Assembly (NCBI RefSeq): GCF_006175995.1
Contig: NZ_VDMB01000024.1
Span: 1 to 50,709, forward strand
Origin: Desulfobotulus mexicanus
GTDB taxonomy: Bacteria; Desulfobacterota; Desulfobacteria; Desulfobacterales; ASO4-4
Direction: 5' to 3'
DNA: 50,709 nucleotides
Shown one piece after another: positions 10,826 through 25,632 of this stretch. Position numbers and translations under genes: made by a program. Under the pieces are notes generated by a model. It saw only the letters and a program-made list of their open reading frames with translations, ran no database searches and was not told the origin of the DNA. The first letter of the stretch is position 1, and each line of letters begins with the position of its first letter.

Positions 10826-13800
10826 ATGCATACCCGAATTCCAGCCTTTTTTTTCTGTTTCTTCTATCTTTTTTCCTCCCTTGCCCTGGCCAGCCCCCTG
10901 ATACGCATTGTGCCCCAGGGAGAGGATGTTCCTTCGGATCAGCGCATCCGTCTGGAATTCGACAGACCCATGATCCCTCTCGGGCAGGCTGAAGCAGCAA
11001 ATGTACCTGTCCGTATATCTCCAGAAGTTAAAGGCCAATGGCGCTGGACAGATCCCCAAACCTTAAGCTTCAGACCCGATCCCGAAGAAAAACTTAAACC
11101 GGCAACCCGTTACCGTGTGGATGTAAATGCAGGGTTGGTGGCTCTGGATGGCACAGCTGTAAAACCTGTAAAAGAAAAAACCTTTATCACCACAAGACCT
11201 GAGATCCGCCACGGATTTTTCCATAAGTGGCTTGATGAGCTCACCCCCGTATTTGAACTTCAGGCCAACATGCCCCTTACCCGCTCTTCCGTGGAAAAAG
11301 CCGTGGTCTTCCATACAGGCGGCGGATTTCACCCGGTAAAGGTATCCGCAGCTGGTGATCTTCCGAATGCAGCCATCGCCACTTCCTGGATTATCCAGCC
11401 TGCCCGGCCCCTTCCTGCCAACGAGAAAACAGAACTCATGGTAAAAAAAGGACTGCGGACACCGGAAGGCGACATGCCCGGTAAGGAAATCAGAAACCTG
11501 CGCAATTTTGTTACCTTTCCTGCCCCTGAATTCCTCGGCCTCCGATATGCCACCCTCAATGGAGAAAATATTTTCATCCCTGCTTCCAGTGAAGATCAGA
11601 TCACAAAAGACGGACCGCCCCAGCCCGCAGACCCCCAAGGATATGCGGAGCTTCTTTTCAGTACACCGGTACGGATATCCCAGGCAACGCAAAACATCAC
11701 CTTCACACCTCCCCTTCCGGGTATAAACAAACCATGGGAAGACTATTATGACTATGACCCTACCCGCAGCCTGCATACCGAAGACAGCACCTACGGCATA
11801 TCCCTGCCTGCAACTCCGCTGCCCCTGCAGGATTACACTATCCATGTGAGTGGAGTCATGACGGATGCATTCAAGCGGAAAATGGGTGAGACACGCATTG
11901 CCCGCTTCCATACGGACAGGCTGAAACCTTCTTTTTATCTCCCCACCAGCACTGCGGTTCTTGAAAAGGGGATGGATTCGGAACTCCCCATTTCTTTTAC
12001 CAATATTAAGAATTACAGAATTCAGGGCTCTGCCATGGACAAAGGGGGATTCTACCCCGTAGATACAGGCTATATGCAGACCGGCATTCCCGAAAACACC
12101 TCCGCCACCCTGGCTGCAGGTATCCGGAACATCCTGACGGAAAGCGGTATACTCAGCGCAGAAGTACAGACAGACCCTGAAGTAAGTACCTGGGAAGGGG
12201 CTTCCCGTTTTCTGACCATAGTATCTCCCTGGCAGGTGGTGGTAAAAATAGGACACTTCAACAGTCTGATATGGGTGACAGATCTCCGTACCGGCCAGCC
12301 CGTCTCCGGTATCACCATACGCCTGCTGGAAGGGCATGAAAAAAATCTTGAAATCAGTGATGAGGAAATTGCCACAACCCGCACCAATGCTGAAGGCATC
12401 GCCCTTCTGCCGGGAACAGCGGAGCTGGATCCGGAACAGAAAACAGCAGGCAGGGGCGAATACCGGGAAGACAAACCCCTCTGGTTCCTTGAGGCCTCCA
12501 GTGAAAAGGATCTGGTGCTTTTCCCCTTGGACTGGCGTTTTTCCCTGAATCCATGGCAGATATCCGATACTCCCATATTTTCCAGTGCAAGGGCTCCCCT
12601 TGGCCATATTAAAAGCTGGGGCCTGACGGCCCAGGGAATTTATCGCACCGGCGAAACCATGGACTATAAAATTTATGTCCGGAATCAGGATCTGCACGGA
12701 CTGATACCACCGCCTTTATCAGGATGGACATTGAAGGTGCTGGATCCCGGCAATCAGGAAATTTTCAGAAAAGATGATTTCCCGCTTTCCGCCTTTGGAA
12801 CCTTCCACGGCTCCCTGTCCATCCCTGAAAACGGCAGAGTGGGAAGGTACAGCTTTGAGCTCTCCCATAAAGACACGGATAAAATTCTTCGTCCCCTTTC
12901 CGTTATGGTAACGGACTTTTCCACAGCTCCTTTCCGTGTGCAGGCAGATATTGCCGCACTGCAGGCAAAACCCGGAGACAAAGTCACATTTAAAGCCACA
13001 GCCAGTCTCCATGCAGGTGGAGCCTATACAGAAGCACCGGTACGCATACGCAGCCATATCCGTTCCCGGCCCTTTACACCGGACAGTCCCGCATTGAAGG
13101 ACTTCTATTTTGACAGCAATAACGGCAGGGAGAATCTACCGGTTAAAACCCTTGCAGACCTCAGCCGCAGGCTGGATGACAAGGGCAGGTCAAAGGCCCA
13201 GATAAAAATCCCTGAAACAGATCTGGCCTTTGGTACACTTACCCTGGAAGCAGGTGTCAGCGACGAAAGGGGAAAAACCGTATCTGCCAGCACATCCATT
13301 CCCTTTGAAGGAAGGGATATGCTGGTGGGGATCAAAGCACTGGACTGGATGCAGAAATCCGGAAAAAGTGCTGAATTCCGTGTTGTGGTTGTGAATCCAA
13401 AGGGAAAAATCATACCCGATATTCCCATCCGTTTTATTGCCGAACGTCAGGATGTTTCCGTGGTACGGGCAAGGTCGGCAGGAGATGCCTACACACCCAG
13501 ACACAGCATAGAATGGAAGGAAGTTGCCACAGGCAGCCTTGTTTCAGGCGAAAAGCCGAAGGATGCGGTATTCACCCCGGATACGCCGGGCCGCTGGCGG
13601 GTTCGTGTGGAAATCGAAGACAGCCTGGGTCGTACCCATAAAACCAGTATTCCCGTATGGGTTTCCGGTCCAGGAACTGTAATCTGGGAAAGCCCCGAAG
13701 ATCTGCGGGTGGAGCTGGTTCCTGAAAAAACAGAACTTCAGGTGGGGGACACGGCCCGCATTCTTATAAAAAACCCCTTCCCCGGCGCAAAGGCTTTGAT

Positions 13801-16486
13801 CAGTGTGGAGCGTTACGGTGTACTCCGTCACGAAGTCCGCACCCTTGAAAATGCCGCAGAGGTAATAGAAATTCCCATGGGACCTGCCATGCTTCCAGGG
13901 TGCTATGTATCCGTATCCATTCTCTCGCCCAGAGTAGAAGGATCTCTTCCTCCGGAGAAGGGACCTGATCTGGGAAAACCGTCCTTTCGAAGCGGCTATC
14001 TGTATCTGAGCGTGAGGCCGGAAGAGCAGAAAATTCCCGTTAGCGTAAACATGGACAGGGAAAGCTACAAGCCCGGTGAAACCGTGCATGTAGAGATTGA
14101 AATTCCAGAGAATCTGGCCGACAATACGGAGCTGACCCTTGCCGTTCTGGACAGTGCCATTTTTGATCTTCTACCCGGTGGAAGGAAAAACTTTGACCCC
14201 CATACCGGCCTGTACGCACCTGTTTCCTCCATGGATCTTGAAACCTACACCCTGCTCTCCCGCCTTATCGGAATGCAGCGCCTGGAAGCCAAAGGGGCCA
14301 CACCGGCAGGAGACGGCGGCGGTATCCGCCTGAGGGAAGATTTCCGGGGCGTAGCTTTCTGGCAACCGGAAATCCTGCCCGATTCCAGCGGCCGTGCCAG
14401 AATCTCCTTCAGTGCTCCCGATAATCTGACCAGCTGGGAAGTTCTGGTTCTCGCTGTCACGCCAAAGGATCGCATGGGCACAGGCCATGGTGTCTTCCGG
14501 GTTAACCGGCCTACGGAAATCCGCCCTGTCATGCCCAATTTCCTCCGCACGGGAGACAAACTTGTGGCTGGTTTTTCCATTTTAAACCGTACGGATAAAA
14601 CCAGAGATATAAGCATCCGGGCAGAGCTGCACAAAGAAGGAAGAATACTTGCAAACCGTGAATTTGAAAAAAACTTTGAGCCCTGGCAGCGCCAGCTTTT
14701 TCTTCTGCCCGCAGAAGTCCGTAATACTGGCAACTTACGCATGGAAGTCATCGCAAAGGATGCCCTTGACGGTGATGCCATAGGCCACAGCCTTGAGGTC
14801 ATAGAAAGTATTTTACTTGAAACCCAGGCAACTTCCGGTATTACCAAAGACAAAGTAACGCAGATCCATTTAAAGATTCCGGAAAAAGCAAGGCTGGATG
14901 TGGGTGCCTTGGGCATAAGGCTTTCCCCCAGCCTTATTTCCTCGGTGGAAGCCCCCCTTCTTTTCCTGAGAGACTATCCCTATGACTGCTGGGAACAGCA
15001 GTTGTCAAAGGCCATGGCTGCAGCTCTCTACCTTTCCATGATGGATTATCTGCCCGATGAGGTACAATGGCAGAATGCAGAAAAAGTCATTCCTGAAATT
15101 CTGGCAAAAGCCGCCCTTTTCCAAAGGGAAAATGGCTCCATGGCTTATTTCCCCACATCCGGCGGGGGAGAGAACCCAATGCTCTCAGCATTTACAGCCC
15201 TTATCTTCAAAAAACTCGCAGATTTTGGCTTTTACCCTGCCCCTGATGTCACCCGAAAACTGGACGCCTACCTTGACACCCTTATGCGAAGGAATATCAC
15301 AGGAGACTCTGTTCTGGACCGCAGTTCCCGCATGATGAGCCTGCTGGCACGTTCTGAACAGGCGGATGCAGACCTTTTTGAACGCCTCCGACCCCACCCA
15401 GAACGTGACGGGCTTTTTGCAACAGCCCTTTTTCTGGAAGCCGCGGCCAAAAAGGGATTAAGCTATGGTGAACTCTCCCCTGTGGTGGATGTCCTGCTGG
15501 CACGAACCCATAAAACAGCCGGAGGCCTTTCCGCCCAGGATGAGGAAAGCATATCCCATCCATGGCTCATGGGTTCCCACTCCCGTACCCAGGCTGCAGT
15601 ACTCATGGCCATAATCCGCCTTGGAGAATTACCCGATGCGCCCAAAGAACTACTCAGCTACCCCACCCTGCTTATGAGAGAACTCATGGCACAGCAGGGT
15701 AAAGCTGCCCGCTGGCAGGGTACCCAGGAAAACCTTTTTGCAGCTATGGCTGCAACGGAATACGCCCTAAGCTATGAAATCGAGAGGGTAGACCTTGAAG
15801 CTAAGGTCCGGGACGAAGAAGGGCTTGAAGGAAAAATCCGCTTCCGGGATATCCGGGACACGGCCGTCCGCATTACGCGGCCCATAGTAAAAAATGATCC
15901 GGGCAGAGACCAGATTATTCAAATAGAAAAAAGTGGTTCCGGTTCACTTTACTATACCGCAGCCCTTGCCTTTGCCTCAGAAGAACCAAAACTACCTGCC
16001 GACAACGGCCTGCACGTCCGGCTGCGGATCTTAAATGAAAAGGGTGAAGAAATACAAAAGGACAGTGCTGTTTCCATGTTCAGGGGAGAGCGTGTTCATA
16101 TGGTATGCGATATCAGCAACACCCAGAATTTAAACTTTATCATAGCTGAAGTTCCCCTTCCCGCAGGCCTTGAGGCAGTAAATCCCCATCTGGCAAGCTC
16201 CGGAGAAGAGATGAAAGCACCAGCCCTGCCCGATTCCGTAAAATCAGGCAACCCATGGCCCTTTTATCATCAGGAGCTTCAGCATCAGCAGGTCCGCTTC
16301 TTTGCAGAAGATCTGCCTGCTGGCACCTGGCGTCTGTATTTTACAGCCCAGGCCATTGCCGAAGGCAGCTTCCTTATGCCTGCAGCCCATGCAGAAGCCC
16401 TGTACAGACCTGAAATATGGGGCAGAGACAAAAAGCATTTGCTGATTATCGGTCCCCGGACCGATGATCCTGCCATGGAACAATGA
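10826..16486 (+). CDS. Bacterial alpha-2-macroglobulin (YfhM-like)
   Basis: A 1886-residue secreted protein. Residues 1-22 are a signal peptide ending LALA; there is no lipobox cysteine, unlike the lipoprotein form of E. coli, so it should be free in the periplasm or held by partners. A string of macroglobulin-type beta domains follows, then the marker segment ending in FREDFRGVAFWQPEI-like residues, and the thioester loop YPYDCWEQQ with Cys1388 and Gln1391; the usual loop is CLEQ, so Trp replaces Leu. A helical thioester domain and a C-terminal receptor-like domain complete it. These proteins trap foreign proteases by the reactive thioester. The stop overlaps the pbpC start (ATGA), the classic pairing in which PBP1C mends damage to the wall where the envelope was breached. 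Confidence 0.92.
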   Translation: MHTRIPAFFFCFFYLFSSLALASPLIRIVPQGEDVPSDQRIRLEFDRPMIPLGQAEAANVPVRISPEVKGQWRWTDPQTLSFRPDPEEKLKPATRYRVDVNAGLVALDGTAVKPVKEKTFITTRPEIRHGFFHKWLDELTPVFELQANMPLTRSSVEKAVVFHTGGGFHPVKVSAAGDLPNAAIATSWIIQPARPLPANEKTELMVKKGLRTPEGDMPGKEIRNLRNFVTFPAPEFLGLRYATLNGENIFIPASSEDQITKDGPPQPADPQGYAELLFSTPVRISQATQNITFTPPLPGINKPWEDYYDYDPTRSLHTEDSTYGISLPATPLPLQDYTIHVSGVMTDAFKRKMGETRIARFHTDRLKPSFYLPTSTAVLEKGMDSELPISFTNIKNYRIQGSAMDKGGFYPVDTGYMQTGIPENTSATLAAGIRNILTESGILSAEVQTDPEVSTWEGASRFLTIVSPWQVVVKIGHFNSLIWVTDLRTGQPVSGITIRLLEGHEKNLEISDEEIATTRTNAEGIALLPGTAELDPEQKTAGRGEYREDKPLWFLEASSEKDLVLFPLDWRFSLNPWQISDTPIFSSARAPLGHIKSWGLTAQGIYRTGETMDYKIYVRNQDLHGLIPPPLSGWTLKVLDPGNQEIFRKDDFPLSAFGTFHGSLSIPENGRVGRYSFELSHKDTDKILRPLSVMVTDFSTAPFRVQADIAALQAKPGDKVTFKATASLHAGGAYTEAPVRIRSHIRSRPFTPDSPALKDFYFDSNNGRENLPVKTLADLSRRLDDKGRSKAQIKIPETDLAFGTLTLEAGVSDERGKTVSASTSIPFEGRDMLVGIKALDWMQKSGKSAEFRVVVVNPKGKIIPDIPIRFIAERQDVSVVRARSAGDAYTPRHSIEWKEVATGSLVSGEKPKDAVFTPDTPGRWRVRVEIEDSLGRTHKTSIPVWVSGPGTVIWESPEDLRVELVPEKTELQVGDTARILIKNPFPGAKALISVERYGVLRHEVRTLENAAEVIEIPMGPAMLPGCYVSVSILSPRVEGSLPPEKGPDLGKPSFRSGYLYLSVRPEEQKIPVSVNMDRESYKPGETVHVEIEIPENLADNTELTLAVLDSAIFDLLPGGRKNFDPHTGLYAPVSSMDLETYTLLSRLIGMQRLEAKGATPAGDGGGIRLREDFRGVAFWQPEILPDSSGRARISFSAPDNLTSWEVLVLAVTPKDRMGTGHGVFRVNRPTEIRPVMPNFLRTGDKLVAGFSILNRTDKTRDISIRAELHKEGRILANREFEKNFEPWQRQLFLLPAEVRNTGNLRMEVIAKDALDGDAIGHSLEVIESILLETQATSGITKDKVTQIHLKIPEKARLDVGALGIRLSPSLISSVEAPLLFLRDYPYDCWEQQLSKAMAAALYLSMMDYLPDEVQWQNAEKVIPEILAKAALFQRENGSMAYFPTSGGGENPMLSAFTALIFKKLADFGFYPAPDVTRKLDAYLDTLMRRNITGDSVLDRSSRMMSLLARSEQADADLFERLRPHPERDGLFATALFLEAAAKKGLSYGELSPVVDVLLARTHKTAGGLSAQDEESISHPWLMGSHSRTQAAVLMAIIRLGELPDAPKELLSYPTLLMRELMAQQGKAARWQGTQENLFAAMAATEYALSYEIERVDLEAKVRDEEGLEGKIRFRDIRDTAVRITRPIVKNDPGRDQIIQIEKSGSGSLYYTAALAFASEEPKLPADNGLHVRLRILNEKGEEIQKDSAVSMFRGERVHMVCDISNTQNLNFIIAEVPLPAGLEAVNPHLASSGEEMKAPALPDSVKSGNPWPFYHQELQHQQVRFFAEDLPAGTWRLYFTAQAIAEGSFLMPAAHAEALYRPEIWGRDKKHLLIIGPRTDDPAMEQ

Positions 16487-18675
16487 AAAGGCGTCTATTC
16501 ACCGGAGTGGCTTCTGTCATTCTGATTCTTATATTTTCAGGGATATGGATTATATCGGAACTGCGTCCCCTGCCGCCGGAACTGAAACCCGGCAGCAGGA
16601 GTGAGCGTATCCGCCTTTTGGATTACCATGGCAAACCCCTCACCCTTTCCAGGGATGATGAGCTCAACACCACAGATATTGCTAATCTGGATACCATTCC
16701 CCTGCTTCTCCGCCAGGCAATTCTTCTGGCCGAAGACCAGCGTTTTTTTCAGCACAGGGGAACAGACTGGAAAGCTGTTTTCCATGCGCTTTTCCAGAAC
16801 ATGAGGGCAGGCCGGAACATCCGTGGGGCAAGCAGCATTACGGAACAGGTAATCCGTATTCTGCACCCCAGACCCCGCACCCTGAGCTCCCGCATTCTGG
16901 AAAGCATAGAAGCCCACCTTCTGGAACACCGCTTTTCCAAGGCGGATATTCTTTCCTTCTACCTGAATCAGGTACCCTACCCGGACCGGTGCAGAGGCGT
17001 AATGCAGGCCGCAAATTACCTTTTTGACAGGGATCTTTCCACCCTGAGCAATGCAGAAATCATTACCCTGGCAGTCCTTCCCAGAGCACCCCAGGCTCTG
17101 CATCCTGAACTTTACCCGGAAAGGCTAAAAAAACGCACCGCTGACCTTGCCCTCCGCATGACAGAAGCCGGATTACTGGAAAAAAATTCCCTTGAAAATG
17201 CCCTGAAAATTCCTGAACTGAAGAGAGCATCCATACCCGTGCATGCACCCTTTTTTGTCAGTTTTGTAAGGGAAAGACTGCACCATAGCACCACAGAGAG
17301 TACCCATATCCGCACCACTCTGGACGCTTCTCTTCAAGACAGGGTACAGAAGCTTCTGGACAGGCGGATAGAGCAGATGAGCAGCCGGAAAGTCAATAAC
17401 GGAGCCGTCATCGTCATCAGCCACCAGACAGGAGAAATACGGGCATGGGCCGTGGCGGGTAACAAAGATGAAAGACCCGGAGGAAAAATCAACGCGGTCC
17501 TTGCACCAAGGCAGCCAGGCTCAGCCCTCAAACCCTTTGCCTATGCCATGGCTCTGGAAAAGGGATGGACAGCAGCCACCCCCATTGAGGATACCCCCAT
17601 CAGTACCCCAGTTGGTACAGGTCTTCACGATTACAGGAACTACTCCCGCAACACGTATGGCACCCTGCCCCTGCGGGATGCTCTGGCAAATTCCCTTAAC
17701 CTTGCGGCTATCCGCACCGTGCGCCATGTGGGAACAGCCCCCTTCCTTGCTACCCTAAGGGACTGTGGCCTGCAAAGCCTCACCCGAAATGCGGACTATT
17801 ATGGAGACGGCCTTGTGCTGGGCAACGGAGAAGTCTCCCTGCTGGAGCTGACAGAGGCCTATGCCGTTTTCGCCCGGGATGGTCAGAAAGTTCCCCTTCG
17901 CTTCCTTGCGGATGAGTCCCGGCCTCTTTTACCCGCAAAAAAAATTTTCCATAAGGATACGGCCCGGCTCATCGCAGATATTCTTTCCGACCCTGAAGCC
18001 AGAAAATACGAATTCGGCCCCCTGATGAATTTTCCCGTACAGACCGCCATTAAAACAGGCACCAGCTCCGATCACAGGGATGCATGGGCCTTTGGTTTTG
18101 ACCATAAACATACCGCAGGCATCTGGATGGGCAACCTTGACCGCAGCCCCATGCAGGGACTTGCAGGCGCTTCCGGCCCTCTGCCTTTGCTCCGGGCCAT
18201 CTTTAACGAACTGAACCGCAATCAGCCAACCAGGGGGCTGACTCCGCCCGAAGAACTTGTAAAAAAAGACATCTGCATACAAAAAAAAGGGGCGGAATGC
18301 ACAGCCTTCCGCAGTGAATGGCTGCCACCCATGGAAAACAACCTGCCTGCAGATCTTGCCCGGACAGAAGAAATTCGCCTCCTCCGTCCTTCGGATGGAC
18401 TGACACTCGCCATGGACCCAAGAGTTCCCCTTGAACATCAGCGTCTTGTATTCAGCGTGGAAGGGGCAGAAGAAGGAGCCCTTTACCGCTGGTATGTGAA
18501 TGGTCAGTTTTTTAAGGAAAGCAAGACATCTGACATCGAATGGCAGCTCTATCCGGGTCAGCATCAAATACATGTAGATATTCTTCTGGATGGCAGAAAA
18601 ACTGTTCAGAAAAAAACAGAGATACAGGTTATGGGAGGTATTCGGGCAAAGCTGCAAGGCGACTTCCTGGATTGA
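16483..18675 (+). CDS. pbpC: Penicillin-binding protein 1C
   Basis: Bifunctional peptidoglycan synthase of 730 residues. One N-terminal membrane segment (residues 6-25) anchors it in the inner membrane. The GT51 glycosyltransferase domain shows EDQRFFQHRGTDW with catalytic Glu84 and GASSITEQ. The transpeptidase domain has SxxK at Ser347 (GSALK), SLN at 404-406 and KTGTS at 524-528. Residues about 635-720 form the small C-terminal BiPBP_C domain found in PBP1C. All catalytic residues are present. Its start codon overlaps the stop of the macroglobulin gene by 4 bp, so the two are translationally coupled. Confidence 0.95.
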   Translation: MKRRLFTGVASVILILIFSGIWIISELRPLPPELKPGSRSERIRLLDYHGKPLTLSRDDELNTTDIANLDTIPLLLRQAILLAEDQRFFQHRGTDWKAVFHALFQNMRAGRNIRGASSITEQVIRILHPRPRTLSSRILESIEAHLLEHRFSKADILSFYLNQVPYPDRCRGVMQAANYLFDRDLSTLSNAEIITLAVLPRAPQALHPELYPERLKKRTADLALRMTEAGLLEKNSLENALKIPELKRASIPVHAPFFVSFVRERLHHSTTESTHIRTTLDASLQDRVQKLLDRRIEQMSSRKVNNGAVIVISHQTGEIRAWAVAGNKDERPGGKINAVLAPRQPGSALKPFAYAMALEKGWTAATPIEDTPISTPVGTGLHDYRNYSRNTYGTLPLRDALANSLNLAAIRTVRHVGTAPFLATLRDCGLQSLTRNADYYGDGLVLGNGEVSLLELTEAYAVFARDGQKVPLRFLADESRPLLPAKKIFHKDTARLIADILSDPEARKYEFGPLMNFPVQTAIKTGTSSDHRDAWAFGFDHKHTAGIWMGNLDRSPMQGLAGASGPLPLLRAIFNELNRNQPTRGLTPPEELVKKDICIQKKGAECTAFRSEWLPPMENNLPADLARTEEIRLLRPSDGLTLAMDPRVPLEHQRLVFSVEGAEEGALYRWYVNGQFFKESKTSDIEWQLYPGQHQIHVDILLDGRKTVQKKTEIQVMGGIRAKLQGDFLD

Positions 18676-18762: not shown

Positions 18763-19746
18763 TTAGAAATCAATTTTTTCATCCAGCTGTCGTATGCGGA
18801 TTTTCAGGAAAAGATCTCCGATTGAACCATCATCCATCCGCCTTCCCAACCCCTTCAACCTCAGCTTTTGCCCTTCACGGCTCTGGGGCGGGACGGTAAT
18901 CTTATAAAGGCGGGAATAAAAACCCCATGGGATGTTCACCCGCTTGGTGCATCCTGCAAGGGCTTCCGGTGGAGAAAGTATCAGGGTACCGTAAAAATGG
19001 GGAGCATCCTGAGGGGCTATCACACGGATAGTCTGGAGTCCCGGAGTTTTCCTTCTACGCATAGCCTTGCGTACCTTTGCCGCAAAATGACCTTCCGGAA
19101 GCCGCACGAGAAAACGCAGCAGAAGAGCACCCATGACAAAGCCACCAATATGAGCCCACCAGGCCACCCCTCCTCCTCCACCCATGGCATTAAGTACCTG
19201 AAACATAAACCAGATACCCATATAGATGAAAGCCGGTATTTCAATGAAAAGTGGGAAAATAAAAATAGGGATGAGGGTCAGGATACGGGATGCCGGATAC
19301 AGAAGAAAGTAAGCACCCATGACACCGGCAATGGCACCACTGGCTCCCACAACGGGAATGGTTGAACTGGGATAAACCATGGAATGGGCCAGTCCCGATA
19401 CCAGTCCGCAAACAAGATAAAACCCGAGGTAACGAAGGGGGCCAAGGCGGTCTTCAACGTTATCCCCAAAAATCCAGAGGGTCCACATATTGAAAATAAT
19501 ATGGAGCCAGCCGCCATGGAGAAACATAAAGGAAAAAAAAGTGAAAACCTTCTGAAACAAACCCGTATAGGCAGAAAGGGCTGGGTCCGTGTAACGGGCG
19601 GGAACCAGCCCCCACTCCCACAGAAAACGGGCCATCTCCGGCCCCTGCCCCAGTTGTATAAAAAACACCAGGGCATTGATAAGGATAAGCAGAAGAGTCA
19701 CCACCGGCCGGTTACGGGATGGCTGGGTGTCTCGGATGGGAATCAT
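18763..19746 (-). CDS. Rhomboid intramembrane protease fused to a DnaJ C-terminal-like domain
   Basis: A 327-residue protein. Residues 13-215 are a six-helix rhomboid domain with HGGWLHIIFNMW after the L1 loop, catalytic Ser136 in VVGASGAIAG and catalytic His199 in WWAHIGGF. Residues about 240-327 are soluble and resemble a client-binding domain of DnaJ: GTLILSPPEALAG-x-TKRV, then YKITVPPQSREGQKLRLKGL and GDLFLKIRI, which follow the DnaJ pattern 'kv-x-IP-x-G-x-x-G-x-x-LRLKG-x-G ... GDL'. The ATG at 19746 with GGGAGA just before is chosen over a start at 19800, which would run into nadC. Rhomboids cut membrane proteins; the tail might bind unfolded clients. It lies 13 bp after nadC. Confidence 0.85.
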   Translation of the reverse strand: MIPIRDTQPSRNRPVVTLLLILINALVFFIQLGQGPEMARFLWEWGLVPARYTDPALSAYTGLFQKVFTFFSFMFLHGGWLHIIFNMWTLWIFGDNVEDRLGPLRYLGFYLVCGLVSGLAHSMVYPSSTIPVVGASGAIAGVMGAYFLLYPASRILTLIPIFIFPLFIEIPAFIYMGIWFMFQVLNAMGGGGGVAWWAHIGGFVMGALLLRFLVRLPEGHFAAKVRKAMRRRKTPGLQTIRVIAPQDAPHFYGTLILSPPEALAGCTKRVNIPWGFYSRLYKITVPPQSREGQKLRLKGLGRRMDDGSIGDLFLKIRIRQLDEKIDF

Positions 19747-19759
19747 TTCATCTCCCTGA

Positions 19760-20620
19760 TCAGGTGGCCCATTCCGGACGAAGCTTTCCCGGGGGGGCAA
19801 TTCGCATGCTCAGATCCACGGCCCTTGCCTGATGGGTCAGAGCACCTGCTGAAATGATATGAACACCCGCAAGACTCAAAACCTTTATTTTTTCCTGTGT
19901 CACCATACCGGAAACCTCCACAAGACTGCGTCCGCCAATACGTCGGACAGCTTCTCTGATCATATCGGCATCCATATTATCCAGAAGAATGACATCCGCA
20001 CCAGCATCCGCAGCCTGATCCGCTTCCTCAAGGGTTTCCGCCTCCACCTCAATTTTCACCAGATGGGAAACCCGCCTGCGCACGGCTTCCACGGCCGAGG
20101 CCACACCTCCGGCTGCGGCGATGTGATTATCTTTAATGAGAACGCCATCATAAAGTCCCATACGGTGATTGGCAGCCCCTCCCACACGTACGGCATATTT
20201 TTCCAGAACCCGCCAGCCCGGTGTGGTCTTCCTTGTGTCCACAAGGGTAATGTCACTGCCTTCCATACCCCGACCAAAGGCCCGAACATGGGTGGCAATT
20301 CCACAAAGACGCTGCATAAAATTCAGGGCCGTCCGCTCGCCTGTAAGCAAGGCACGCATGCGCCCCTGAAGGTGCAGGATGCGGGTATTAAGGGCAAGAG
20401 CCTCTCCCTCCTTCACCAGAGGAGAAAAAACCACATCTTTATCAAGCTTTTCAAAAACCCGACGGGCCACGGAAAAACCAGCCGGAACTATGCCCTCTTC
20501 CCGGGTGATAACAATACCTTCGCCCATGGCATCTTCGGGAACAATGGCCTCGGTGGTAATATCTCCCGTACCTATATCCTCTTCCAGAGCCAGATCAATG
20601 AGGCGTTCCACAGCAAACAT
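19760..20620 (-). CDS. nadC: Nicotinate-nucleotide pyrophosphorylase (carboxylating)
   Basis: Quinolinate phosphoribosyltransferase of NAD synthesis: quinolinate plus PRPP to nicotinate mononucleotide, CO2 and pyrophosphate. The 286-residue product is of normal length and shows LALEEDIGTGDIT at the start, GERTALNFMQRLCGIAT, DTRKTTPGWR with the catalytic basic residues, GGAANHRMGLYDGVLIKDNH, EVEAETLEE and VEVSGM. AAGGGG precedes the ATG. The rhomboid gene follows 13 bp downstream, probably in the same transcript. nadA and nadB are not in the window. Confidence 0.95.
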   Translation of the reverse strand: MFAVERLIDLALEEDIGTGDITTEAIVPEDAMGEGIVITREEGIVPAGFSVARRVFEKLDKDVVFSPLVKEGEALALNTRILHLQGRMRALLTGERTALNFMQRLCGIATHVRAFGRGMEGSDITLVDTRKTTPGWRVLEKYAVRVGGAANHRMGLYDGVLIKDNHIAAAGGVASAVEAVRRRVSHLVKIEVEAETLEEADQAADAGADVILLDNMDADMIREAVRRIGGRSLVEVSGMVTQEKIKVLSLAGVHIISAGALTHQARAVDLSMRIAPPGKLRPEWAT

Positions 20621-20891: not shown

Positions 20892-23555
20892 CTACACCAT
20901 GGCAGCCATACGATCCCGGTTGGCAACAAGCTGTATACGTTTTTCCGAAAGCTCCCCATGCTGCTCTTTCACCTTTTTCACAACCACCTCAGGCGCCTTG
21001 TCAACAAAACCTGGATTATCAAGCTTGGCAGATATGCCATTCAGCTCCTTGTCCACCTTGGCAATGCTTTTGTCCAGACGTTCCACTTCTTTGGAAAAAT
21101 CAAGAATACCTTCCAGGAGAACATAGAGGGGGGAACCGGAAACAATACTGGTGGCAGAGACTCTGGGACGTTCCCCCACACTGGCTGCTTCAAGGGTGCT
21201 GAGGCGTGCCAGAAGCTTCATCAGGTCTCCATGGTTGTTAATCATTTCTTTCTGGAAGGGATTATCCGTATGGAAAACCGCATCCAGAGCCTGGGCCGGA
21301 GGAAGATTCATCTCGCCTCTTATATTACGGACCCCCGTCACAAGCTCCATGAGAAACTCCATGGCCACTTCCGCTTCAGGAGAATAGGCCAGACGCTGCT
21401 GATCCCAGTTTGTTGTGGGATAAACAGCCTTCATGATGGAACCTCTCTCTCCGGGGAGCTTTGACCAGATTTCCTCCGTAACAAAGGGAATGATGGGGTG
21501 AAGAAGAATCAGAGTATCACTGATCACCCGGTAGAGCACGCCCTTGGTGGCTTCCATGGCCGCTTCTCCGGACTTACCGAAAAGAACGGGTTTTATGGCC
21601 TCAAGGTACCAGTCACAGAATTCATTCCACACAAAACGATAGAGAATGGAAGCAGCATCGTTGAAACGGTAAGTTTCCAGAGCCTGCTGCACCTGGGCTG
21701 CCACCGTATTCAGGCGGGAGAGAATCCACTGATCCGGCAGGGACAGGGCTTTTTCATCAAAACTTTCATAGGCCCGGTCCAGATGCATGAGGGAAAATCG
21801 GGCCGCATTCCAGAGCTTATTGATAAAATGGCGGTAACCTTCCACCCTTTCTTCGGCAAGCTTGATATCCCTGCCCATGGCGGCAAAACTCGTCAGGGTA
21901 AAACGGAAGGCATCGGTGCCGTACTGATCAATCACTTCCAGGGGATCAATAACATTGCCAAGGGATTTGCTCATTTTCTTGCCCTCGGCATCCCGGACCA
22001 GTGCATGGATATAAACTTCCTTAAAGGGCACCTCATCCATGAAATGGGTACCCATCATCATCATACGGGCCACCCAGAAAAAGAGGATATCAAATCCTGT
22101 CACCAACACAGAGGTCGGATAAAAGGTTTTCAGAAGATCCGTATTTTCGGGCCATCCCATGGTGGAAAAGGGCCAGAGGGCAGAACTGAACCATGTATCC
22201 AGCACATCACTTTCCTGGATCAGGGAGCTGGAACCACAGTCCGTACAAAGCTCGGGGTCCGCCTCAAGAACCATGAGAGAACCGCAGTCTTTACAGGTCC
22301 ATGCCGGAATACGGTGACCCCACCAGATCTGACGTGAAATACACCAGTCCCGGATATTGTGCATCCATTCGTAATAGGTTTTGGTCCAGTTTTCGGGATA
22401 AATGCGGGTATGCCCCTCTTCCACCGCCTTTAGGGCTTTTTCCGCCAAAGGGGCCACCTTCACAAACCACTGCAGGGAAAGGTTGGGTTCCACCACGGTC
22501 TTACAGCGATAGCAATGCCCCACACTGTGGGTCAGCTCTTCTTTTTTAATCAGCAACCCCTGCTTTTCCAGCTCAGCCACAGCAGCATTCCGTGCCTCAA
22601 AACGATCCAGCCCTGCAAAGGCCCCGGCATGGGCATTCATCCGGCCATCATCATCAATGGCCTTAATCTGCTCCAGGCCATGCCTGATGCCCAGTTCAAA
22701 GTCATTGGGATCATGGGCTGGTGTTACCTTCAGACAACCCGTACCGAAATCCCTGTCCACATAGCTATCCCGGATGACAGGGATCTCCCTCTCCGTCAGG
22801 GGAAGTTTAACAAAAGCGCAGGAAAGGTCTGCATAGCGATCATCTTCGGGATGGAGAGCTACCGCCGTATCCCCGAAAAGGGTTTCCGGGCGGGTGGTGG
22901 CCACCACAAGGGAAGCGGAATCATCCGCCAGGGGATAGGCAATGTGATAGAGAAAAGAATCTTTCTCTTCATGCTCCACCTCCAGATCTGCCAGAGCCGT
23001 ATGGCAGCGGGGACACCAGTTTATCAGATACTGCCCTTTATAAATCAGGCCCTCTTCGTACAGCCGTACAAAAACCTTGCGAACAGCTTTTGAGAGTCCC
23101 TCATCCATGGTGAAGCGTTCACGATTCCAGTCACAGGAAGCGCCAAGGCGTTGCAGCTGATTGATGATGGCACCACCATACTCCTGACGCCATTCCCAGA
23201 CTCTGTCGATGAAAGCATCCCTGCCCAGATCATCCCGGGATTTCCCTTCAAGGGCCAGCTGCTTTTCCACCACATTCTGGGTGGCAATACCCGCATGGTC
23301 CGTTCCCGGCATCCACAATACATTTTTTCCGCAAAGCCTGTGGTAACGGCAGAGAATATCCTGCAGGGTATTGTTCAGTGCATGGCCCATGTGCAGCTTA
23401 CCCGTGACATTGGGCGGCGGAATCACGATGGAAAAAGCTTCTTTTTCCTCATCTTTATCCGCAGCGGCAAAGAGCTGATTTTCCAGCCAGTAGCGGTACC
23501 AGCGCGCTTCCACTTCCCGGGGTTCATACCCCTTGTCTAACAGAGCCTCACTCAT
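20892..23555 (-). CDS. valS: Valyl-tRNA synthetase
   Basis: Class I aminoacyl-tRNA synthetase charging tRNA-Val, 887 residues. The HIGH motif appears as HMGH in PPNVTGKLHMGHALNNT, the editing domain has TTRPETLFGDTAVA, and KMSKS is in GKKMSKSLGNVIDP. Cysteine pairs in TCKDCGSLMV and CTDCGSS suggest a zinc site in the catalytic insertion. The C-terminal 60 residues form the tRNA-binding coiled coil (SKEVERLDKSIAKVDKEL). The ATG at 23555 with GGGAG in front is preferred to the in-frame GTG two codons earlier. The stop codon abuts MITE copy 1. Confidence 0.97.
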   Translation of the reverse strand: MSEALLDKGYEPREVEARWYRYWLENQLFAAADKDEEKEAFSIVIPPPNVTGKLHMGHALNNTLQDILCRYHRLCGKNVLWMPGTDHAGIATQNVVEKQLALEGKSRDDLGRDAFIDRVWEWRQEYGGAIINQLQRLGASCDWNRERFTMDEGLSKAVRKVFVRLYEEGLIYKGQYLINWCPRCHTALADLEVEHEEKDSFLYHIAYPLADDSASLVVATTRPETLFGDTAVALHPEDDRYADLSCAFVKLPLTEREIPVIRDSYVDRDFGTGCLKVTPAHDPNDFELGIRHGLEQIKAIDDDGRMNAHAGAFAGLDRFEARNAAVAELEKQGLLIKKEELTHSVGHCYRCKTVVEPNLSLQWFVKVAPLAEKALKAVEEGHTRIYPENWTKTYYEWMHNIRDWCISRQIWWGHRIPAWTCKDCGSLMVLEADPELCTDCGSSSLIQESDVLDTWFSSALWPFSTMGWPENTDLLKTFYPTSVLVTGFDILFFWVARMMMMGTHFMDEVPFKEVYIHALVRDAEGKKMSKSLGNVIDPLEVIDQYGTDAFRFTLTSFAAMGRDIKLAEERVEGYRHFINKLWNAARFSLMHLDRAYESFDEKALSLPDQWILSRLNTVAAQVQQALETYRFNDAASILYRFVWNEFCDWYLEAIKPVLFGKSGEAAMEATKGVLYRVISDTLILLHPIIPFVTEEIWSKLPGERGSIMKAVYPTTNWDQQRLAYSPEAEVAMEFLMELVTGVRNIRGEMNLPPAQALDAVFHTDNPFQKEMINNHGDLMKLLARLSTLEAASVGERPRVSATSIVSGSPLYVLLEGILDFSKEVERLDKSIAKVDKELNGISAKLDNPGFVDKAPEVVVKKVKEQHGELSEKRIQLVANRDRMAAMV

Positions 23556-23645
23556 GTGCACTCCCTCATGCTTCTTATTATATCTTCACAAAAACCGGTT
23601 TTTAAAATCCGGTCGTATACACAAAAAAACAGGAATACGGACCAT

Positions 23646-23711: not shown

Positions 23712-25166
23712 TCAGGACGGATCTTTGTAAAGAGCATCCTTCAGAGCATGGATTTCTTTTTCCACAGCCCTTTCCACAACAGAAACCAGAGCCATATCCA
23801 GTTTTTCAGCAAATACCTTGCGAACCACCCTCTCAAGTATGGCTTCAAAATCCACATCCGCCAGCCTGTCCTCCAAGGCCTGCACAGAGCTGCCCTGCTC
23901 CATATCCTCTGAAAAATCATTGTTTTCCAAAGGCACAAAGCCTGTGTCCGGCATCAGGGATTCTGCTGCAAGATCCTGATTCGAACCTTTATCGAAATCA
24001 GAATCCAGGTCTTTCTCAGGCTCATCAGCAAAAGAAAATGCTGAGTCTGCCCCACCTTCATCAATGGTATCAGAAACAAAAAAGTACTTTCCGTCTGACG
24101 AAATGGCTGCCTTTTCTTCCAGATCGAAGAGTGCCTCATCTTCTCCTGAAAAAGCCTGTTCTTCCGAAAACTCTCCCTCGTCCGATTCTTCTACAGGCAC
24201 GTCCTCTTCCAGAAGAATACCAGCTGCTTCCAAATCAAGAACATCTTCCTCGGAAAAAACTCCTTCGTCCGATTCTTCTACAGGCACGTCCTCTTCCAGA
24301 AGAATACCGGCTGCTTCCAAATCAAGAACATCTTCCTCGGAAAAAACTCCTTCGTCCGATTCTTCTACAGGCACGTCCTCTTCCAGAAGAATACCGGCTG
24401 CTTCCAAATCAAGAACATCTTCCTCGAAAAAAACTCCTTCGTCCGATTCTTCTACAGGCACGTCCTCTTCCAGAAGAATACCGGCTGCTTCTAAATCAAG
24501 AACATCTTCATCTGCAAAGCCATTTTCTCCGGAATCAGAAATATGATCTTCTTCAAGAAGATCCCCTGCTACAGCCAGATCCAGCACATCATCAGCATCA
24601 CTGGCATTCCATGAATCTGCATCGGATACCGGTTTGCCATCCAATTCCAGAGAGAAATCATCTCCTTCAAGAAAAGCACCCACATCACCGAGATCTATAG
24701 CCTCTTCCCGAAACATCAACTCTGTTTCCGAAGGAACATGAACCTCACCTTCCGGCGCAGCAACAGATACCTGTGAAAAATCAGGAACATCTGCCGCATC
24801 AAGATCCTGCTCCTCTACCCAGTCATCCGGATCCAGAAGAAGATCCTCTTCGGGTTGGGGATCAATGTCTTTTTTTACAGGCAGGTCCGGGATTTTATTG
24901 CCACCGGATTTTGGAGAAGAACCAACCAGGATATCTTCAAGATCAATGAAATCTTCATCTTCCACTGAGCTTTCAGAAGGATGCGGAACAACACGAAAAG
25001 GCTCCCCTGAATTATCCTCAGATGCAACTTCCAATACCGGAACGGAAACAGAACCTTTTCCATCTCCTTCTGCCTGAAGGGTCATGGCAAGATCTGAAAG
25101 ATCCAGATCATCCGTTAATCCATCATCACGAGACGGCGCTATGCTCCGTTCAGTCGTATCTTTCAT
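23712..25166 (-). CDS. Acidic protein with tandem 29-residue repeats
   Basis: A very acidic 484-residue protein of unknown function, without signal peptide or membrane segment. Residues about 219-333 hold four near-identical 29-residue repeats built on EEDVLDLEAAGILLEEDVPV and ESDEG; at least one older, diverged unit precedes them (DDVLDLAVAGDLLEEDHISD). The C-terminal 55 residues (ALEDRLADVDFEAILERVV and onward) are predicted to be an amphipathic helix and are the only part that looks like a fixed structural module. The layout of a disordered acidic body and a helical tail suggests a scaffold or docking protein. ATG 25166 with GGAGAATAT is chosen over an upstream start at 25253 that lacks a ribosome site. 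Confidence 0.75.
   Translation of the reverse strand: MKDTTERSIAPSRDDGLTDDLDLSDLAMTLQAEGDGKGSVSVPVLEVASEDNSGEPFRVVPHPSESSVEDEDFIDLEDILVGSSPKSGGNKIPDLPVKKDIDPQPEEDLLLDPDDWVEEQDLDAADVPDFSQVSVAAPEGEVHVPSETELMFREEAIDLGDVGAFLEGDDFSLELDGKPVSDADSWNASDADDVLDLAVAGDLLEEDHISDSGENGFADEDVLDLEAAGILLEEDVPVEESDEGVFFEEDVLDLEAAGILLEEDVPVEESDEGVFSEEDVLDLEAAGILLEEDVPVEESDEGVFSEEDVLDLEAAGILLEEDVPVEESDEGEFSEEQAFSGEDEALFDLEEKAAISSDGKYFFVSDTIDEGGADSAFSFADEPEKDLDSDFDKGSNQDLAAESLMPDTGFVPLENNDFSEDMEQGSSVQALEDRLADVDFEAILERVVRKVFAEKLDMALVSVVERAVEKEIHALKDALYKDPS
24166..24512. repeat. Four tandem 87-bp repeats inside the acidic-protein gene
   Basis: The motif tccgattcttctacaggcac recurs at 24181, 24268, 24355 and 24442, exactly 87 bp apart, and the units between are almost base-identical (differences such as accagctg against accggctg). 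87 bp equals 29 codons, so copy-number change keeps the frame. Near identity at synonymous sites suggests recent duplication or gene conversion. Confidence 0.95.
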
Positions 25167-25632
25167 ATATTCTCCGATTACATGACTGGACAGCCTGGTG
25201 TTGTGGACACCGCAACAGGTAGGAAATGATGGCGACATCCGAAGATTAGACAAAGTAAAGCAAACATTAACTTTTTATTTCTGCTTTCTGGTACATTCCT
25301 TAACTCTAAAGAACCTGAAAAACTTTTTTACCAAAACTCCAAAGCTTGTAGCATATACTTTATAAAGCCTCCCGCATACAATATCTTACCAATTCATGCA
25401 GAAAGTTCTGCGGATAATAAGTCTAAATATTTCATACCAGAAAAAATCTGTCAAGAAAACGGAGCTGTCCTTTTCTTTTAAAAACACTTATTTTTTATAT
25501 GAGGTTCAGAAATAACATTTTTTTCAATCAGGACAGTATCATTGTATCCAATGAGATATAAGTATAAATTGTATTTCTTCGCATTGAGAAGGACTTCAAC
25601 CAAATTAAACTTAAGCCAAAACAAGGATCACC
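25167..25632. other. Divergent gene-free region
   Basis: About 465 bp between the acidic-protein gene (left, minus) and rsmE (right, plus). It must hold both promoters. It is AT-rich with several TATA-like boxes (for example near 25360), but I could not choose a promoter pair with confidence. No open frame here has a ribosome site or recognisable product. Confidence 0.5.

Follow-up and report, generated by a model that had tools for sequence, protein, structure and literature searches.

A rhomboid protease with a single DnaJ C-terminal domain as its tail in Desulfobotulus mexicanus and its relatives

What would a domain of the Hsp40 client-binding type do at the end of an intramembrane protease? 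The question is raised by one gene in a 50,709-nucleotide contig of Desulfobotulus mexicanus (NZ_VDMB01000024.1), referred to here in its whole length as the window. Substrate choice by bacterial rhomboids is largely unknown, and their part in clearing faulty membrane proteins is a recent subject. A conserved natural fusion offers a testable guess at the target of such an enzyme, namely unfolded cytosolic segments. The locus had been picked out in a preliminary description made from the sequence alone. It placed the gene at 18763-19746, with a rhomboid catalytic dyad (Ser136 and His199) followed by about 90 residues in the DnaJ client-binding pattern, and noted that the J-domain was missing. 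These points were all borne out, and the strand is the minus strand.

The gene product and its two parts

The reading frame runs from 19746 down to 18763. The ATG at 19746 gives a protein of 327 residues; an in-frame TTG further upstream, at 19800, is the start of the mechanical ORF of 345 aa. M1 is kept in 99% of 81 aligned sequences (the window protein and 80 relatives), and the ATG is favoured as the start because it agrees with these relatives. The plus-strand frame across the same bases is interrupted by stops. The features of the gene are as follows.

18763..19746, minus strand, whole gene for the rhomboid protease and its DnaJ_C tail, 327 aa, from the ATG at 19746 to the stop codon at 18763-18765
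19489..19503, minus strand, H82-xxx-N86, both residues identical in 81/81 aligned sequences
19339..19341, minus strand, catalytic Ser136 in GASG, identical in 81/81
19150..19152, minus strand, catalytic His199 in AHIGG, identical in 81/81
19105..19551, minus strand, Rhomboid domain (Pfam PF01694), residues 66-214, E 1.5e-34
19039..19110, minus strand, basic stretch after TM6, residues 213-236, linker from membrane to tail (8 K+R, 1 D+E)
18787..19038, minus strand, DnaJ C-terminal-like domain spanning residues 237-320, of which 258-319 match Pfam DnaJ_C
18919..18933, minus strand, loop I-P-W-G-F, residues 272-276, joining two strands of the tail

By motif and by predicted structure, residues from about 12 to 217 are a rhomboid with its Ser136/His199 dyad intact. 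Five full-length AlphaFold2 models had mean pLDDT values of 71.5-87.4, and the best of them (87.4, pTM 0.75) has six helices between residues 15 and 213 that are interpreted as membrane-spanning. This model aligns with GlpG (5f5j) at Z 18.4 and rmsd 2.7 over 171 residues, about residues 12-217 of the protein. Both GlpG and DnaJ structures were matched by one full-length model in a single structure search. H82 and N86 are presumably the counterparts of the oxyanion-hole HxxxN in TM2 of GlpG, and G202 and G206, invariant in 81/81 sequences, are taken to fit its GxxxG motif of TM6. The protein scores below two narrower NCBIfam cut-offs, that of the GlpG equivalog (33.9 vs 250 bits) and that of rhombosortase (35.5 vs 84 bits). 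It can be called a rhomboid protease by sequence and fold criteria, with a predicted activity; the identity of Ser136 and His199 throughout the 81 sequences argues that proteolysis has been retained. The same genome has a second, tailless rhomboid (L082, G000:C7:78254-78658), which begins with a zinc-ribbon-like CxxC...CxxC segment and has GASA in place of GASG.

The tail was identified by sequence profiles and by structure prediction. When the window tail was scanned alone, Pfam DnaJ_C (PF01556) matched at 27.1 bits (E 4.7e-6; cut-off 26.6), and it fell under the cut-off in the whole protein (23.4 bits) and in the genome search (25.2 bits). On the window sequence alone the assignment is thus borderline; across the family it is solid. 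All members of a diverse set of 26 tails, scanned singly, matched DnaJ_C at E<=1, the best at 9.8e-13, and any other Pfam family was matched by one tail at most. A profile of these 26 tails, run against all PDB sequences, found Thermus thermophilus DnaJ2 first (E 2.7e-16), and all 20 sequences at E<=1 were DnaJ or Hsp40 by name, some of them fusions. The tail contains the VPP-xxx-EG-xx-LRLKG-x-G and GDL blocks, and the DnaJ-like positions E261, G265, K268 and L297 are invariant (81/81).

Structure prediction agrees with the profiles. The tail alone was predicted at a mean pLDDT of 88.1 (five models, 84.0-88.1), and its best Foldseek matches were DnaJ chains, with 4j80 at the top (E 6.1e-7). 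In VIA-align the tail model matched the DnaJ-like protein 3lz8 of Klebsiella at Z 11.4 (rmsd 2.6, 80 residues), with other folds starting only at Z 3.6. Residues 241-321 of the full-length model gave Z 11.3 and rmsd 1.5 over 74 residues with the Klebsiella DnaJ-family structure 3i38_K. By profile and by model, residues from about 237 to 320 are one DnaJ C-terminal domain (CTD) of the Hsp40 client-binding type. The preliminary description had named a different fold or disorder of the tail as the outcome that would count against it; neither was found.

Two other accounts of the tail were rejected. Chance resemblance was set aside because DnaJ_C matches all 26 tails and because the fused genes score far above DnaJ-like matches. 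A disordered tail, or one of another fold, was set aside on the pLDDT of 88.1 and on the DnaJ C-terminal domains being the best structural matches.

The other parts of an Hsp40 are missing. A J-domain was absent from the Pfam results at E<=10, and the HPD motif occurs nowhere in the 327 aa. The protein is not a J-domain protein and, lacking that domain, should not stimulate DnaK itself. A second CTD is absent as well, since the models have one CTD-sized unit and then the end of the protein. The comparison with CTD I and CTD II proposed at the outset thus held for the likeness to a DnaJ CTD and failed for the two-CTD arrangement.

The tail leans towards an origin from CTD I rather than CTD II. 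CTD profiles were made from 22 J proteins, two of the window genome, which encodes a DnaJ and a CbpA-like protein, and 20 of relatives, selected by their match to a profile of the fusion junction (TM6 plus tail). The best-scoring profile was CTD I for 78 of the 81 tails, a model made from three single-CTD J proteins for 3, and CTD II for none. Median scores were 50.8 bits for CTD I, 41.8 for the single-CTD model and 32.1 for CTD II; the window tail scored 41.9, 30.7 and 25.9 bits, respectively. The reverse search with the tail profile separated the classes more weakly (medians 44.3 for CTD I, 45.0 for single and 37.0 for CTD II). Against Thermus DnaJ2 the tail profile put CTD1 slightly ahead of CTD2 (32.5 vs 28.3), whereas the single sequence of the window tail put CTD2 above CTD1 (22.8 vs 12.9 bits). 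The structure alignments fell mostly on CTD II, judged by residue number.

The IPWGF loop joins the tail strands E266-274 and E277-285 in the full-length model. It sits where the class A DnaJ of the same genome has its zinc finger. P273 is kept in 74, W274 in 56, G275 in 77 and F276 in 66 of the 81 sequences.

Single CTDs are also found in three J proteins of about 261-267 aa (L141 of G091, L144 of G068 and L148 of G047), each with a J-domain, a long linker and one DnaJ_C. That of G068 has a strongly hydrophobic stretch, PLIIGGAILLGAMSG, and is membrane-associated in appearance. These proteins are possibly related to the rhomboid tail.

Distribution and history of the fusion

The 80 relatives in the alignment were the best of at least 577 found in a search of genome contigs, and were picked by full-length match. 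Where a group was named for these best 80, it was Desulfobacterota or 'Deltaproteobacteria', with one merely 'proteobacterium'. Dyad and tail occur together in 81/81, the tail extending 84-111 residues beyond residue 234, a count that does not measure frequency because the relatives were chosen on full-length similarity.

Frequency was measured in whole genomes with the junction profile. How widely the fusion occurs had been raised as a question in the preliminary description, and it proved to be widespread and conserved. Among 96 kin genomes, the window's own included, 77 carry it across the junction with scores of at least 121.9 bits (the matches in G021, G058 and G092 are partial), and 19 are without it by this profile. 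Below the fused genes come an 82.1-bit piece of the contig-cut G058 and then DnaJ-like matches of at most 46.5 bits. In a phylum-wide sample the fusion spans the junction in 53 of 395 genomes: 15 of the 17 from the same order (own included) and 38 from other orders. Two further genomes, G128 and G303, are interrupted by contig ends and stand outside the 53; G439, where an unreadable stretch parts rhomboid and tail, was not counted. The junction profile was unmatched in plasmid sequences.

Tailless versions of the same rhomboid are also common in the phylum. The full-length profile matched 288 of the 395 genomes at E<=1e-25, fused ones included, and complete fused genes scored 447.9-562.7 bits, with the best tailless gene at 384.1 bits. 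Close to home, the window protein shares 93% identity with its counterpart in Desulfobotulus alkaliphilus, which is in turn identical to that of another congener (G001).

A tree was built from the rhomboid cores of 50 proteins, of which 29 are fused, 19 tailless and 2 contig-cut (L117 was excluded, and 10 of the 80 close relatives were included). Seventeen tailless cores are set apart, with support of 98/95, from a group formed by the other 33, among them every fused one. Because two tailless cores fall within this fused group, the fused genes do not make up a clade of their own; in 200 bootstrap trees no branch (0%) divides them from all the other cores. The tailless-versus-rest trait needs 3 changes on the tree, vs 15.5 with shuffled labels. 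Since the tree was rooted at its midpoint, gain and loss are not formally distinguished, and one gain of the tail with two losses is offered as the simplest reading of the sequences. That the tail can be lost follows from the two tailless members inside the group, L099 (G152) and L104 (G450), the latter on a long branch. No remnant of a tail was present in the 3-4 kb fetched around either gene, and the pair would be a useful natural comparison.

Selection on the tail was estimated by the Nei-Gojobori method from the window and two congeners (three distinct pairs). The tail gave dN/dS values of 0.064-0.079 and the core 0.044-0.064, figures that are rough because dS is 0.45-0.86. By these estimates strong purifying selection acts on the tail, almost as tight as that on the protease core.

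The gene has recurrent neighbours, which in the window are the following.

19760..20620, minus strand, nadC (quinolinate phosphoribosyltransferase), immediately upstream, a recurrent neighbour
20892..23561, minus strand, valS (valyl-tRNA synthetase), second upstream, in the recurrent order valS-nadC-rhomboid

Three of the 80 loci (L019, L072 and L079) were lost to the survey, the gene not being recovered by ORF calling. Immediately upstream, nadC stands in 34 of the 73 loci that have an upstream ORF, and valS follows as the second gene in all 32 nadC loci that extend far enough; in six of the 34, nadC and the rhomboid gene share 4 bases. This order fits vertical inheritance and is not part of the mechanism discussed below. 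Among the recurrent neighbours neither a chaperone nor a protease was recognised, with Pfam naming covering the neighbours in the window.

Two other genes of the window may be recorded. An acidic ORF of 513 aa at 23712-25253 (minus strand) contains near-identical DLEAAGILLEEDVPVEESDEG repeats and matched no Pfam family at E<=0.001. At 10826-18675 (plus strand) an ORF of 1886 aa, whose product we take to be of the YfhM/alpha-2-macroglobulin type, shares 4 bases with a penicillin-binding protein gene with transglycosylase, transpeptidase and BiPBP_C domains (Pfam).

Topology and possible roles of the tail

The linker after TM6 is strongly basic, and the N-terminus has 3 K+R vs 1 D+E. By the positive-inside rule, both ends of the protein should be cytosolic. 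The six helices read from the model, together with the basic stretch, likewise make the tail probably cytosolic. The catalytic serine and histidine of GlpG are open to the periplasm, and helix order puts Ser136 and His199 on the same side. Tail and active site would then lie on opposite faces of the membrane. The preliminary description had proposed a direct link between recognition of unfolded segments and cleavage; the idea of a link stands, but with this topology it would not be direct.

The reading preferred here is that the cytosolic Hsp40-type domain recruits unfolded or orphan membrane proteins to the rhomboid for cleavage, as a form of quality control; we give it a probability of about one half. 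In more general terms, the tail is best read as a putative recognition domain in the cytosol, whether for such proteins or for a partner brought to the protease. An active-type rhomboid would have acquired one Hsp40 C-terminal domain of the substrate-binding type at its cytosolic end. On membrane proteins such as orphan subunits or misfolded proteins, the tail would grip cytosolic segments that are unfolded or hydrophobic and exposed. By tethering the client at the membrane it would lengthen the client's stay at the rhomboid, and the transmembrane segment would be brought to the gate. The rhomboid would then cleave that segment close to the periplasmic face, and other proteases or chaperones would take over the fragments. 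We infer three elements of this scheme: the cytosolic position of the tail, its binding of peptides and the quality-control role. There are published precedents for rhomboids that clear orphan membrane proteins (PMC7232013) and for a cytosolic accessory domain by which rhomboid cleavage is modulated (PMC7231995). Somewhat more tentatively, the protein might be a self-contained, ATP-independent enzyme of membrane triage, in which a single fusion event within this phylum put Hsp40-type sensing and rhomboid cutting into one polypeptide.

Several tail positions are hydrophobic in nearly all of the 81 sequences: F251 in 77, and V270, I272, Y281 and L314 in 81. We take these to correspond to the peptide-pocket residues of yeast Ydj1. 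The same conservation may instead reflect packing of the domain core.

The tail could instead be a dedicated docking or regulatory module for a single partner, such as FtsH or the end of a chaperone (DnaK or another), with the rhomboid acting as an adaptor or being switched by that partner. This is rather unlikely in our estimate. Solved structures (3agz and 2b26) have Hsp40 peptide-binding domains with Hsp70, and the Hsp40 domain in them is presumably CTD I. In the close relatives the IPWGF loop and the near-invariant Q238 (78/81) are conserved, as a docking site might be, but several more distant fused members have other residues at the loop. Nor does any partner gene recur next to the rhomboid in the 73 loci with an upstream ORF. 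A precedent for such an arrangement is YqgP, described in the available text of PMC7231995 as a substrate adaptor of FtsH controlled by its cytosolic domain.

Since only one CTD is left of the DnaJ architecture, and since tailless homologues are common and presumably functional, the tail might also be a structural add-on, no longer able to bind clients, that serves to stabilise or oligomerise the rhomboid. We regard this as improbable. The DnaJ-like sequence is kept beyond what the fold alone might ask (the four invariant positions above), and purifying selection acts on the tail, observations that are, however, compatible with a structural role too. Least probable is a protein that works chiefly as a membrane-tethered holding chaperone with protease activity secondary, an idea that recalls the protease-inactive, rhomboid-fold Derlins of quality control (available text of PMC12615303) and is opposed by the invariance of Ser136 and His199 (81/81).

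If recruitment of unfolded membrane proteins by the tail is correct, chaperone recognition and intramembrane proteolysis are united in one polypeptide. The fusion itself supplies a ready tool, by deletion of the tail or by its transfer onto GlpG.

Comparison with known systems

The fusion suggests that the Hsp40 fold and proteolysis within the membrane are linked, a connection not met in the open-licence literature searched. None of the open-licence PMC papers covered contained both 'rhomboid protease' and 'DnaJ C-terminal', and no title among the matches listed described a rhomboid-DnaJ_C fusion. Soluble accessory domains of rhomboids are mentioned in the available text of a 2025 review (PMC12615303); 'DnaJ' is absent from the main text of that review and from the available text of the YqgP paper (PMC7231995).

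Several rhomboids carry additional domains of other kinds. GlpG of E. coli and H. influenzae (MEROPS S54) shares the rhomboid fold and the Ser/His dyad with the window protein. Its own cytosolic domain is N-terminal (available text of PMC12615303), whereas the window protein adds a DnaJ_C tail instead. YqgP of B. subtilis shares a cytosolic accessory domain and a part in membrane-protein quality control. That domain is N-terminal, has a fold of the restriction-endonuclease type, and binds Mn/Zn, and YqgP differs further in an extracellular C-terminal domain with predicted TPR repeats (available text of PMC7231995). Shigella GlpG and Rhom7 are bacterial rhomboids that cleave orphan membrane proteins. 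Rhom7 differs in having its C-terminal domain after a seventh helix, and this domain was dispensable on an artificial substrate; a chaperone-like domain is not named for either protein in the available text of PMC7232013.

The nearest comparisons are with the two halves of the fusion. The tailless 'MIPxRD' rhomboids of the same phylum have the same core, and the 19 that were read end soon after TM6, at 221-250 aa. The Hsp40/DnaJ C-terminal domains, for example those of Thermus DnaJ2, Klebsiella 3lz8 and CbpA-like proteins, share the profile and fold of one CTD with the tail. In contrast to these chaperones, the window protein is without a J-domain and without a zinc finger, has one CTD and not two, and carries it fused to a membrane protease.
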